From a virus: 32,777 nt of DNA. The stretch's first letter is position 1. Each line of letters starts with the position of its first letter. Under the pieces are notes generated by a model. That model did no database searches. It was given only the letters and a program-made list of their open reading frames with translations, and was not told the origin of the DNA. Of this stretch, positions 27,484 through 32,777 are shown in pieces. Location: positions 1 through 32,777 of the IMG/VR virus record IMGVR_UViG_3300017743_000058; one strand, given 5' to 3'. A program made the position numbers and the translations under genes.

Positions 27484-28587
27484 TTAATACCAAGTTTGAA
27501 TTTCAGAAGTTCCACTAGAACCGCCTCCATCGCCGCTTCCACTCACATCACTTTGGATAGCTCTTGCGATTTTATACTGTCTTCGTGTTCCATCCAATTC
27601 TCTCAACTCTGCAAGATTATAAGGAACTGTATTATTTATAGATGTAATTGTTTTTCTGAAATGTTTCGGGGTGTGTGTTATGGTATTTTTAGAAGATACT
27701 TGTACTCTTTGTCTGTCATAAAAAGACAAATCTGGGGTAGTATAAGAAGATGGTTGTGTGTTTGTATAAATAAAATTATCCTTCCAACCTACACTGCCAG
27801 AGATACCCGCCAATCCAAGAGAAAGCGATTCATGAAGTTCTTGAACTTCAGTTGCAGAAAATGCCTGATTACAAAATCCAAATTCTGTAAAATATCCTGG
27901 CGCCTGGCCAGAATAACCAAAAGATGATGCATTTGTTCCAGAGACTACTCTATCTGTAGTTCCAACTAACTGCCCATCTATATAATAATATTGAGTTCCC
28001 GTTGATGCTGTAGAACTATCGCCTTGTCCAACAACAATAAGTGTCTGCCATGTTATTGAAATATTATATCCAGTATCTCTCCAATTACCATTACGATTTG
28101 AATACATTCCAAGGTCTTTGGCCCCATTATTTACAATAATATTATGGTCATTATCCCCACGCCATAATGTTCTCCATCCGCTATCTGATACTCTAGGATA
28201 CCATCCAGCAAACATAGTATAGTATTGGCCAAATACCGGCGCAGTTCCTGACATACTAATAACATGAGTTGTATCTAGATCAAGACAAGGTTTTCCATCT
28301 ATTGTTGTTGTATTTACAGCAGTGCTCCAGTTAGGAGAATAAGAATCTGATAAAGCATTTCCAGAAGTATGTCCAGCTATAGTTGCATATTGTTCTGGTG
28401 TTCTTGTAGATATATACTGCGATGTTGGTACAGTAGTCGAACTATTAATTGTATATGCGCCAAATGATACATCCAAGGATACTGCGCTTGGCCAAGAAAC
28501 ATTAGAACTAGAACTACTTACAGGAAATTTTCCATAAGTAGGTCTAATATTTGGTATCCCGCTTGTATTTACAGTAAGGGTTGTCAT
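27484..28587 (-). CDS. LamG/concanavalin-like virion surface protein
   Basis: This 367-aa probable structural protein has a predicted LamG-like beta-sandwich at residues ~95-255. The clues are FAGWYPRVSDSGWRTLWRGD, then TWQTLIVVGQGD, YYIDGQLVGTTDRV, and the closing pattern GYFTEFGFCNQAFSATEVQELHESLS, which is typical of LamG_3 domains. These usually bind carbohydrate or decorate capsids and fibres. The C-terminal region is separate and ends in a Gly/Ser stretch (GSGDGGGSSG). AAGGGGGG precedes the start. It lies between a fibre-like gene and the neck genes, so tail fibre tip or neck whisker-like roles are both possible. Confidence 0.7.
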   Translation of the reverse strand: MTTLTVNTSGIPNIRPTYGKFPVSSSSSNVSWPSAVSLDVSFGAYTINSSTTVPTSQYISTRTPEQYATIAGHTSGNALSDSYSPNWSTAVNTTTIDGKPCLDLDTTHVISMSGTAPVFGQYYTMFAGWYPRVSDSGWRTLWRGDNDHNIIVNNGAKDLGMYSNRNGNWRDTGYNISITWQTLIVVGQGDSSTASTGTQYYYIDGQLVGTTDRVVSGTNASSFGYSGQAPGYFTEFGFCNQAFSATEVQELHESLSLGLAGISGSVGWKDNFIYTNTQPSSYTTPDLSFYDRQRVQVSSKNTITHTPKHFRKTITSINNTVPYNLAELRELDGTRRQYKIARAIQSDVSGSGDGGGSSGTSEIQTWY

Positions 28588-28596
28588 GTACCCCCC

Positions 28597-30426
28597 TTAG
28601 ATTGATACATTTGCTACAATATCACTCAATCCAGCACCAGTAACAATAATATTTACAGATGTCTCTGCTGATGTTGATGTGGTAGCAGTTGTTGTAGTCG
28701 CACCACCTGAGAAAGTCATTGTACTACCATCGATAGACAATTCAACATCAGTTGCAATCCTTTCCCCTGCAATATTATATGCGCTCACATCAACCGTACT
28801 GTTAATATCGGAACCAGTATGATTATAAGATGCTTGAGCAGGAGTGATTGTAATTCTTACAGGAATTGTTGGTGTAATAACATGAATATCTGCATATCCC
28901 AAATTTTTACCACCAGCAACCATCCAAATTCTATCTGTGGAGTCTCTGCCTACTGCAAATGCTTTTTCTGCAATAGTTGTTGTGAGTGTCCAACCATTTA
29001 CATTATCCCAATTATAGATATAAAACGCATCTACACCAAAAACACCCAAAAGAGTTTTTGCATCATTTAGAAAAACAGATTGTTTTGCAGTTTCTGGAAT
29101 AGTTACTGTTGAATGATGTGTTAGGGCCGTAGGGTCTGCTGGATCGACTGAATATGTAACAAAAGTTCTTGCAAGTGAATCAGAATCTACTCTTCTATGT
29201 TCTCCACAAAGATACATAGCAGTTAGGTATCTATTACCACCATTTACAAATGTTTCATTCCATACGACACCTAAGAAACCATATGCATCTGAGGATGTGC
29301 CAGGCAAGTTTAACATATGTGTAGAACTTAAATCTCCAGTGATGTTTGTTGCCTGATCTCTTGTGAAAGTATCGGTTGACTGATCCCATCTAAATACAAA
29401 TGGATGATAGTTATAACTTGTATCAAAGTATGGCACATACCAACACTTATCAGCAGCGCCTGGATCATCAAAATGTTTTGATGAAATTTTTTGCATCTGA
29501 CCCATTGTAGTATTCATTGTTCTTGCACCACCATATGAAGTGCCCGAAGCGCCTGGCGCAGCTGTGCTCGAAAACATATCAGTTGTATTATCAGTTGAAA
29601 TATTATGTCTGCGAATGTAATGGGTGTAGTCTGTATCGGAATGAGTTGCAAGGTATAATGGTTGTCCGTCTTGCGTAGACTGTCCGATATACATGTACCA
29701 ATAAGGATTTGCAAGACTAATATCATATTTGTCATTGGTACTATCGAATGATGAAAATGAGTTTCTTGCAATACCCATCCAAGGTCTGAAAATATAGCTA
29801 TACCTAAATTTACCACCAATTCCTGAAATTCTGTCGCTGTTTGGGTCTTTCACAGTCCAAAATACAGGTTCTTGGTGATCAGTAGAGTTGGTTGACCCCC
29901 CATATCCAAAAACTGTGTTTGGATTTGTTTCATATAATTCTCTGTTAGGCGAAGGATTGAACCAAGAATGTTGATAGTACCAGTTATAGTGTGATGGTTT
30001 GTTATTATATAGCAGTAGTTCATCATTTGTATTTGAATCTACAATTCTTCTAAGCGGCGCAGATTGGATTGTGGGATCAATTGAAAAAAAGTTCCAGTAA
30101 TCTACATTATTCAAATGATTTGCTCCATGAGCTCCTTCATAATGCCAACAATATGCAGTTTCTTTAGTTAGTGCCATTGTAGTTGGAGCTCCAGCGCGTA
30201 ATGAATGTGCGTCAGTTACTGTTAATTCAATATAATTACCAGAGGTGTATGCATTAAAATCGTCAGATTCACTAGACGATTTTAATCTTAAAGTTCCACC
30301 AAACTTTGTTGCCAATGTTGTCTTGTCGTGTGCCTGATGATCTAAATATATTGTATTTTTTGAAGGCCTTGGATCCTCAAATACTGAGACTGCCGACGTG
30401 CGCGATGCTCTTTTAATTTTTGCCAT
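28597..30426 (-). CDS. Large virion protein with propeller-like region and C-terminal Ig-like domain
   Basis: This 609-aa protein is not recognised by overall sequence. Residues ~330-515 contain repeated strand-rich units (FVFRWDQSTDTFTRDQA, then YIYNWDNVNGWTLTTTIAEK, then AVGRDSTDRIWMVAGG) that look like beta-propeller blades. Residues ~520-609 resemble a bacterial Ig-like domain (PVRITITPAQASYNHTG... DVELSIDGSTMTFSGG). The N-terminal part has many Trp/Tyr/Asn. AAGGAG precedes the ATG at 30426. Its neighbours are fibre-type genes, so a distal fibre or receptor-binding role is plausible but not shown. Confidence 0.65.
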   Translation of the reverse strand: MAKIKRASRTSAVSVFEDPRPSKNTIYLDHQAHDKTTLATKFGGTLRLKSSSESDDFNAYTSGNYIELTVTDAHSLRAGAPTTMALTKETAYCWHYEGAHGANHLNNVDYWNFFSIDPTIQSAPLRRIVDSNTNDELLLYNNKPSHYNWYYQHSWFNPSPNRELYETNPNTVFGYGGSTNSTDHQEPVFWTVKDPNSDRISGIGGKFRYSYIFRPWMGIARNSFSSFDSTNDKYDISLANPYWYMYIGQSTQDGQPLYLATHSDTDYTHYIRRHNISTDNTTDMFSSTAAPGASGTSYGGARTMNTTMGQMQKISSKHFDDPGAADKCWYVPYFDTSYNYHPFVFRWDQSTDTFTRDQATNITGDLSSTHMLNLPGTSSDAYGFLGVVWNETFVNGGNRYLTAMYLCGEHRRVDSDSLARTFVTYSVDPADPTALTHHSTVTIPETAKQSVFLNDAKTLLGVFGVDAFYIYNWDNVNGWTLTTTIAEKAFAVGRDSTDRIWMVAGGKNLGYADIHVITPTIPVRITITPAQASYNHTGSDINSTVDVSAYNIAGERIATDVELSIDGSTMTFSGGATTTTATTSTSAETSVNIIVTGAGLSDIVANVSI

Positions 30427-30706: not shown

Positions 30707-32777
30707 CTTTTTTATATGTAAACTGGACGTAAAGATCTTCTCCAGTATTTGTTGTTCCAATACTCGTAACATCAACGGTTAAATAGTCATTTGCATTCAT
30801 ATTAATTGTCTGATCAGCAATTGTTGTAGTTGTTACATTTGTACCAAAAGAGTATGTTTCTTCTGAAACTCCATTCTTTTTGATATCAACACCAACAGTT
30901 GCATCTGCAGCAGTTCCAAGTCTTGAAGTAATTCCTGTTACCTGTAAATTATATGGTGCATACCATCTCTTAGTACCAGTGTGTACTTGCAGAGCACCCC
31001 CTTGATGTAGGTTTATATTGAATATTGTTTCGTCTTTAATTTTTGTGGAAACTTCTGTATCATTTAAACCAGTTTCAACTACAGTAGATTCGTTAATAAC
31101 CTTTTCTAACTTAGACTGAAATTGGACTGTATCATCCATATATTCGCCCATGTCTTTTGCTTTAAATTTACTTGTTGTTCCATCCCATACAAGTGTTAGA
31201 TTATCTACATCTTCTATTACTGGCACTGGTTTTATTTCTACTGGAGTTTTATGACCTTGTTGGTCGTGTTGAAAATATAGAATATAGTTATTATCTACAT
31301 TTGTTTCCACCACAAGGTCTTTTATTGTAATTGTACCTCTCATTGCGCCATGAATGCCGCATTGATAATATAATGTATCCGGCGCATTAGCTGGAACAGT
31401 AAACACAAGAGTGCCACTTTCATTCCTAGAACCAGTGACGCCATCTGTATATTCTCCGACATATGTACCAGAAACATAGTTTGTACCATCATCTGTGGTA
31501 AGATAGAAAGGATGTCCAGTAAGACTAGCATCTAGATTGAAAGTATATGTACCGCCGCGATATAAAGGATTTAATGCTGGATTATCTCCATGCGCCGAGC
31601 CACCAAATGTATATGCGCCAGCATTTGCGAAAGAAATATTATATGAAATTGCAGGGTTATTAAGTGTTGGTGGTGTGATTGTAGAGGGAACATTAATATT
31701 CAATCTCTGCACTTCTGTGGATTGTCCACCATTGATATCTGGATGAGTTACACCAGTTATATTCAAAGTAGAAGTTGTCCAAGAAACAAGATTATCTGTG
31801 CCTGGCCCGTCTACCCACTTTAGGTATATTTTATGTGTTTGCGTCATTCCACCGTGCAAATCATGTGCTGCGAAGTTATTTACAATATATGTACCATCAT
31901 TATAAAGTGGGATATTTGACTGTAATGCATTAGTAATTTTAAGTCTTGTATATGCAACCTTACCAGCATCCCAAGTCCATTTCCAATCCATTCCACCACC
32001 GGCGTCTGGTGCATCAACATTGATTGTGAAAGTTTCTGGATCAATTGTAAGGTCAAAATCTAAAATATCAGTTTGAGAAAATGTTTTATCTCCAAGATAT
32101 AAAGTGCCTGCAGACAAATATAAATCTCTAAACTTATTGGTAGAACTACCTAAATCATATGTTTCGTTTGCATCTGGAATTATATGTCCTGTAATAACTC
32201 TTGGATCAATCCACTCGTAATCGCCCGTACCTTGCGCTCCACCTGTAGAATCCCAACCTAGTACTTGCCCATCTGATATAATAGTTGAACCACCCGCATT
32301 ATTTTTATTCAGATGAAAATCTACCTCATCTTGAATGGTATCACCAAGTCCACCTACGTTTGCACCACTAAAATTTACTGTAGTATGAGTAAAGTCTAAT
32401 GTTCCAAGTTGCGCGTTGATAGAACCGCCTGTACCTAATTCTAAACTACCAGCAGCAACCCGGCCGGTGACAACTACGCCCTGAGCATTATCTGCAATAT
32501 TTGCCAAACCAACATCGGAATTACTAAGTCCAGCTATAGATGCACCACTAAAATTTACCGTAGTATTAGTAAAGTCCAATGTCGCAAGTGATGCGCTGAT
32601 AGACCCACCAGTACCTACATTCACTGTGGTAGTTTGAATAGGCCCTGTAATCCAAGTATCTGATGTGATACGTTCAACAAACAATTCTTTACCAACACTG
32701 ACCTTGCCACCCATGCCTGTGTGATTCGCACAGTAATAGTACAACCTTGGCGTAGCATTCGTATCTACAATCTCCAC
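30702..32777 (-). CDS. Tail fibre protein with cupredoxin-like domains (5' end outside the window)
   Basis: This partial protein has 691 codons in the window. The first codon seen is GTG and is probably internal. It carries fibre features: two 60-residue repeats GTGGSI.A.L.TLDFT near residues 52-84 and 112-144, and the fibre motif ETYDLGSSTNKFRDLYLS near 205-222. A cupredoxin-like domain (~375-487) has His in LTGHPFYLT (422) and CGIHGAM (C473, H476, M479). A second, cut domain at the window edge has YYYCANHTGMGG (C16, H19, M22). The C-terminal part is a beta-rich trimer-like region. Late-expressed and probably virion-exposed; receptor binding is inferred. Confidence 0.8.
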   Translation of the reverse strand: MEIVDTNATPRLYYYCANHTGMGGKVSVGKELFVERITSDTWITGPIQTTTVNVGTGGSISASLATLDFTNTTVNFSGASIAGLSNSDVGLANIADNAQGVVVTGRVAAGSLELGTGGSINAQLGTLDFTHTTVNFSGANVGGLGDTIQDEVDFHLNKNNAGGSTIISDGQVLGWDSTGGAQGTGDYEWIDPRVITGHIIPDANETYDLGSSTNKFRDLYLSAGTLYLGDKTFSQTDILDFDLTIDPETFTINVDAPDAGGGMDWKWTWDAGKVAYTRLKITNALQSNIPLYNDGTYIVNNFAAHDLHGGMTQTHKIYLKWVDGPGTDNLVSWTTSTLNITGVTHPDINGGQSTEVQRLNINVPSTITPPTLNNPAISYNISFANAGAYTFGGSAHGDNPALNPLYRGGTYTFNLDASLTGHPFYLTTDDGTNYVSGTYVGEYTDGVTGSRNESGTLVFTVPANAPDTLYYQCGIHGAMRGTITIKDLVVETNVDNNYILYFQHDQQGHKTPVEIKPVPVIEDVDNLTLVWDGTTSKFKAKDMGEYMDDTVQFQSKLEKVINESTVVETGLNDTEVSTKIKDETIFNINLHQGGALQVHTGTKRWYAPYNLQVTGITSRLGTAADATVGVDIKKNGVSEETYSFGTNVTTTTIADQTINMNANDYLTVDVTSIGTTNTGEDLYVQFTYKKV
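31317..31655 (-). other. Cupredoxin-like domain coding segment in the fibre gene
   Basis: The segment encodes residues ~375-487: strands YRGGTYTFNLDASLTGHPFYL, then GTLVFTVPANAPDTLYYQC, then the ligand loop CGIHGAM followed by RGTITI. H422, C473, H476 and M479 correspond to the type 1 copper ligands of plastocyanin. The C-x2-H-x2-M spacing and following MRG are as in amicyanin. Confidence 0.65.
32346..32624 (-). repeat. Two 180-nt-spaced repeats in the fibre gene
   Basis: Copies at 32526-32624 and 32346-32444 encode related segments (GTGGSISASLATLDFTNTT and GTGGSINAQLGTLDFTHTT). They are typical of fibre shaft repeats that grow or shrink by recombination. Confidence 0.7.

Follow-up and report, generated by a model that had tools for sequence, protein, structure and literature searches.

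A cupredoxin domain with a complete type-1 copper ligand set in baseplate and fibre proteins of marine phages

INTRODUCTION

Does a phage tail protein that shows the four copper-binding residues of a cupredoxin hold a type-1 copper site, and what might such a site do on a virus particle? The question arises from an open reading frame (ORF) at the edge of a 32,777-nucleotide stretch of DNA, an IMG/VR virus record (IMGVR_UViG_3300017743_000058, positions 1 to 32,777), hereafter the window. A sequence-only reading of this DNA had proposed an amicyanin-like copper ligand set in a tail fibre. The cupredoxin fold and the type-1 site type are themselves already known. Within the available texts of the open-licence PMC literature on copper, cupredoxins and virion proteomics in phages and on Marine Group II cupredoxins, no description of a cupredoxin domain in a phage virion was found; PMC8115048 deals with viral nirK genes and not with structural proteins.

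THE FIBRE ORF AND ITS LIGAND RESIDUES

The window comes from an uncultured marine T4-like virus. On the strand of the fibre ORF it holds T4-type genes for a head-tail adaptor, head closure protein, sheath stabiliser, terminase, sheath, tube, portal, protease and major capsid protein. Upstream of these genes come two ORFs (609 and 367 residues; 27484-30426) whose only matches are to uncharacterised phage families, and beyond them the fibre. The nearest relatives of the capsid protein are those of the OM43 phage Melnitz (65 %), of cyanophage S-SKS1 and of pelagiphage Mosig. A tie between amicyanin and the methylotroph host of Melnitz, the nearest isolate, was considered and dropped as coincidence.

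Table 1. Features of the fibre ORF, with positions in the window
Feature	Position	Strand	Basis and remarks
Fibre/baseplate ORF, 691 residues	30702..32777	(-)	Open at window edge, where the N-terminus is cut
Residues 377-489: cupredoxin domain with all four type-1 copper ligands	31311..31649	(-)	AlphaFold2 model, Foldseek, VIA, phrog_677
His422 codon, first ligand, loop ahead of strand (GHPF)	31512..31514	(-)	ORF reading; covarying pairs
Cys473 codon, thiolate ligand, end of penultimate strand	31359..31361	(-)	Model; ORF reading; conservation
His476 codon, second His ligand	31350..31352	(-)	ORF reading; conservation; covariation
Met479 codon, axial ligand	31341..31343	(-)	ORF reading; Met in 124 of 125 copies with both His
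C-terminal end of second cupredoxin domain, residues 1-28 (Cys16, His19, Met22)	32694..32777	(-)	HMM match 2.5e-7; cut by window edge
Junction in ORF: upstream part resembles a 2,300-2,937-residue fibre, downstream part a separate 541-residue fibre of relatives	32200..32207	(-)	Comparison with relatives

Translation of the ORF (Table 1) bears out the four ligands that had been read from it, in the same order, with His422 in the LTGHPF context (LTGHPFYL) and Cys473, His476 and Met479 within YYQCGIHGAMRG. Only two of the 691 residues are Cys, and both sit inside C-x2-H-x2-M loops; the other is Cys16, in YYYCANHTGMGG, at the very start of the ORF. This Cys16 loop was absent from the sequence-only reading. 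The ligand set is not a chance one: the pattern H(25-70)C-x2-H-x2-M arises in 4 of 20,000 shuffles of the ORF residues, and the full set is present in all 28 cellular copies of the domain and in 18 of 19 copies from phage isolates or single-cell records, the exception being RB11-B, with FAVM. Beyond the cupredoxin domain there is an FQHxQxxH motif that is invariant in close relatives (residues 352-359 of the L003 protein, about 501-508 of the window ORF) and could serve as another metal site or as a contact site.

The ORF reads as described, but comparison with relatives calls for a correction. Residues 1-190 have 84-88 % identity to part of a giant fibre (at least 2,273 residues in contig L141, at least 2,937 in L142; also in L143), while residues 195-690 have 93 % identity to a separate 541-residue fibre that follows the giant one in L142. 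The window ORF thus unites two genes that are separate in relatives, with the N-terminus of the first cut by the window edge. The joint falls at a sequence repeated in the fibres of the relatives; it could reflect a true deletion-fusion or have arisen in assembly. The cupredoxin domain is well clear of the joint, within the second part, and is not affected by it; an identical domain is encoded by contig L002.

Of the domain that contains Cys16 the window has the end only, and the complete form (SHPLRF..CANHSGM) is present in L141-L143. This second cupredoxin domain, in the giant fibre, is of a different subfamily, SHPLRFSEVSDGTH..YYYCANHSGMGG, and has the full ligand set (residues 1599-1694 of ORF 1 in L142).

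FOLD OF THE DOMAIN

An AlphaFold2 model of residues 370-493, built on an alignment of 38 relatives from virus contigs, has eight strands, a mean pLDDT of 86.7 and a pTM of 0.83. His422 (model residue 53) is placed just ahead of the strand at 55-58, Cys473 (model residue 104) terminates the strand at 99-104, and His476 and Met479 lie in the loop that precedes the last strand, 111-117. As modelled, this layout of strands and ligands is the cupredoxin arrangement, an eight-stranded Greek-key beta sandwich like those of solved cupredoxins, with one His followed by Cys, His and Met on the loop before the last strand. A model of the complete 541-residue relative was unusable (pLDDT 48).

Comparison with solved structures gives the same answer. 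All of the 50 best Foldseek matches listed from the PDB are cupredoxins or multicopper proteins, headed by rusticyanin (5e-5) and including azurins with engineered short loops, pseudoazurin and amicyanin. By VIA the highest scores are to the three-domain nitrite reductase of Hyphomicrobium, in its N-terminal domain (Z 11.1), and to rusticyanin (Z 10.7, over 103 residues), both at 2.4 A over 98-103 residues. The predicted fold is thus that of a cupredoxin. Among BFVD models, fold matches include "beta-sandwich proteins" that stand alone and come from metagenome genomes of Pithovirus and Marseillevirus (A0A481Z6J5, A0A481Z7Q7, A0A481YVH3).

PLACE AMONG CUPREDOXINS

The C-x2-H-x2-M spacing, which had been likened to that of amicyanin, is found in 122 of the 124 full-set copies. 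The MRG that ends the loop in the window, also offered as an amicyanin match, is not a feature of the family: M-x-G occurs in 113 of the 124 copies, and the residue after Met is Arg in 14. After the first His stands Pro in 118 of the 124. Small cupredoxins have Asn at this place and multicopper oxidases have His-Pro; Pro in place of Asn removes one hydrogen-bond donor to the Cys.

None of the sequence-family libraries searched gives an above-cut-off copper-protein match for the domain. The best NCBIfam match is amicyanin (TIGR02657), at 14.3 bits (E 0.042) against a cut-off of 110.2 bits. To the Pfam family Copper-bind (PF00127) the window domain has no match and 11 of 39 relatives have weak ones, the best at 0.016, the gathering threshold not being reached; the best Pfam match is PF25489, At5g54830-like, with a top value of 1.8e-6 among the relatives. 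Searches of PDB sequences with the domain or its profile returned only weak matches, to nitrite reductase, laccase and auracyanin, at E 0.1 or worse. What survives of the amicyanin kinship is the length of the loop; an exclusive kinship is not supported. To judge from sequence, the domain is a branch of its own among cupredoxins and not an amicyanin.

Several known systems resemble it in part. Rusticyanin and the N-terminal domain of the Hyphomicrobium nitrite reductase are the closest folds in the PDB, yet their identity to the domain is only about 19-24 %. The ligand loop of rusticyanin is longer, C-x4-H-x4-M. Amicyanin has in common with the domain both the cupredoxin fold and the loop length (CTPHPFM, in the title of PDB 2fta), but is a free periplasmic electron carrier, whereas the window's is a domain of a putative virion protein. 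The match to phrog_677, a family of cyanophage baseplate wedge tail fiber connector proteins (gp9/gp10-like), is strong (8.9e-25 with the domain; 1.7e-17 with the ORF, residues 323-488) and confined to the C-terminal part of that family, which is matched by the domain and about 60-80 preceding residues; the remainder of the window protein has no match there, and the family record is silent on copper.

CONSERVATION AND LOSS OF THE LIGAND SET

The sequence-only reading would have been undermined by homologues in which the four residues vary freely. Free variation can be rejected: relatives either keep all four or drop both His, and usually the Cys, together. The 204 unique copies divide into 125 with both His, 77 with neither and two mixed ones, one of which is without the region around the first His. 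Where both His are present, Cys follows in 125 of 125 copies and Met in 124 of 125; where neither is, Cys is found in 12 of 77 and Met in 50 of 77. Corrected mutual information over 3,828 column pairs ranks His422-His476 first, Cys473-His476 second and His422-Cys473 third, and with the 68 rows of the large metal-less group removed these pairs rank fifth, first and fourth, respectively. From this joint conservation and top-three covariation we conclude that the four ligands act together, as a single metal site would. The covariation also speaks indirectly for side chains that would lie within bonding distance of one metal.

One of the baits used to collect the copies was a consensus that included the ligand residues, so some copies were found with ligand-bearing baits, and for this reason two further samples were drawn with a ligand-free pattern. 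The scan of genomes yielded the 28 cellular copies. The scan of viruses yielded 76 unique rows, about 30 of them with all four ligands (in one row the Met is displaced by one position) and the rest mostly with neither His; L161 and L164 retain the first His alone.

A large viral group, spread over many loci (L048-L109, L151-L230), has lost both His and mostly the Cys (FCQM, YSQM, YSQL and others) and keeps the rest of the domain; it is possibly freshwater. On a weakly resolved tree of 204 rows and 88 columns there are 12 changes between full and metal-less states on the best tree, of which at least two are forced by well-supported branches, too few for a sign test of independent losses. As far as sequence similarity tells, the fold outlives the loss of the site.

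These metal-less relatives bear on whether any metal is bound at all. The set could have been inherited from a cellular cupredoxin and retained for packing or for a role specific to the Cys, the domain serving as an Ig-like spacer or adhesin that holds no metal in vivo. That many relatives without the set retain the fold fits such a history. The cytoplasm, in which phage proteins fold, offers hardly any free copper, which also counts in its favour. The sets that are kept are nevertheless entire across viruses, archaea and bacteria, and unused inherited ligands should decay singly, which the His pair does not do; we think this reading doubtful. Nor is another metal, such as zinc, iron or nickel bound in seawater, at all probable. 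Type-1 sites can take zinc on overexpression, but two His, a Cys and a Met on a C-x2-H-x2-M cupredoxin loop are the typical copper set, and the Met is all but constant where both His occur.

DISTRIBUTION AND PHAGE SETTING

By tblastn the domain is found in 314 phage records, almost all of Synechococcus and Prochlorococcus phages, in which it is annotated mostly as baseplate wedge tail fiber connector (gp9/gp10) and in some cases as tail fibre. A profile search found at least one copy, and up to five, in 17 of 17 phage or virus records, Melnitz and Mosig included; 15 of the 17 had been reached via this domain, and only Melnitz and Mosig were chosen independently of it. The Autographiviridae phages P-SCSP2 and P-GSP1 have it too. 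The domain is thus recurrent in marine phage baseplates and fibres and not peculiar to the virus of the window. Its recurrence in gp9/gp10-type proteins of marine myophages is, like the fold, the ligand set and the joint conservation and loss of that set, shown by computation.

In phage Syn9 the domain occupies residues 311-404 of a 406-residue protein whose N-terminus matches T4 gp10 (1.6e-7) and gp9 (4.7e-5) in a PDB search; in that phage, then, a baseplate protein has it as C-terminal domain. The likeness to gp10 and gp9 is limited to the N-terminus of this Syn9 protein. A profile of the relatives of the window protein found no gp10 or gp9 chain in the PDB; the true N-terminus of the window protein lies beyond the edge. 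The presumed virion location of the domain rests on gp9/gp10 homology, annotations and the PHROG category.

Cellular relatives occur in Flavobacteriaceae, Marine Group II archaea, Halobellus and Myxococcales, and several start with what look by eye like lipoprotein signal sequences. In Flavobacteriaceae the cupredoxin domain accompanies two CHRD-like domains, and in Marine Group II archaea collagen-like repeats. Exported-looking proteins that have two CHRD-like domains or collagen-like repeats and end in the cupredoxin domain were seen in L113, L137 and L128, from Flavobacteriaceae and one further Bacteroidetes MAG, and in L120-L136, most of which are Marine Group II archaea.

DISCUSSION

That the domain binds copper is very plausible, and the sequences suggest that marine virus particles with the domain may carry copper. 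As to what the metal would do, we hold with moderate confidence that an intact type-1 site on a baseplate or fibre protein serves to stabilise a display or adhesion module rather than to carry electrons. Each domain would bind one copper ion; given the scarcity of copper in the cytoplasm, loading would probably take place late in assembly or outside the cell. By bridging the loop of the first His and the Cys-His-Met loop, the metal would lend stability to the module, at the baseplate protein's tip. Since the fold is retained in metal-less relatives, copper would not be required for folding and would instead adjust stability or binding. Against this explanation we count the absence of the site from a large group of viral relatives (77 of the 204 copies), which makes the site dispensable for the domain. 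The lack of an above-cut-off copper-protein match in the sequence-family libraries and the Pro after the first His count against it too. The structural role is one we infer from context.

The same type of site serves electron transfer in rusticyanin and amicyanin, and a redox-active fibre might exchange electrons with components of the host surface or sense oxidants, for example as a trigger of baseplate change. The ORF has no partner domain or second redox centre, however, and the same site occurs in structural-looking proteins, so that we regard this role as very improbable.

A copper Trojan horse has more to recommend it, and is still unlikely. Here the copper-loaded fibre tip would be recognised by, or compete at, a host surface protein for copper acquisition or handling, and the site would take part in receptor binding. 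The position of the domain at the C-terminus of baseplate proteins agrees with this, as does the retention of the set in all but one of the 19 copies from marine phage isolates and single-cell records. An iron parallel has been proposed: PMC11705849 describes iron-binding HxH motifs in phage tail fibres (T4 gp37; alterophage R22Y), likewise transition-metal sites, and proposes a role in adsorption and metal cycling. These fibres differ from the present domain in fold and ligands, and there the metal was seen in a crystal structure of gp37, whereas here it is predicted. Against recognition by a copper-handling receptor are the cellular homologues, which have the same set on exported-looking proteins with no obvious uptake partners, the presence of the same domain in phages of very different hosts, and the want of any known receptor.

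More broadly still, marine T4-like phages might carry virion-borne type-1 copper in their baseplates and fibres, in most cyanomyophages, where it would act in attachment or in copper exchange with the host, as a copper counterpart of the iron Trojan horse, the particles themselves forming a colloidal copper ligand. We offer this only tentatively and think that, taken as a whole, it is unlikely.

If the site does bind copper, many of the phages that are most abundant in the sea, a large share of them, have a blue-copper domain where the tail does its work. Current annotation is silent on it, the proteins being named as baseplate wedge or hypothetical and the domain of the window having no Pfam match. 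Whether tails use trace metals in attachment, and whether phages act as metal ligands in seawater, are parts of a long-running question that now becomes directly testable in cultured cyanophages, with natural metal-less relatives as ready-made controls.
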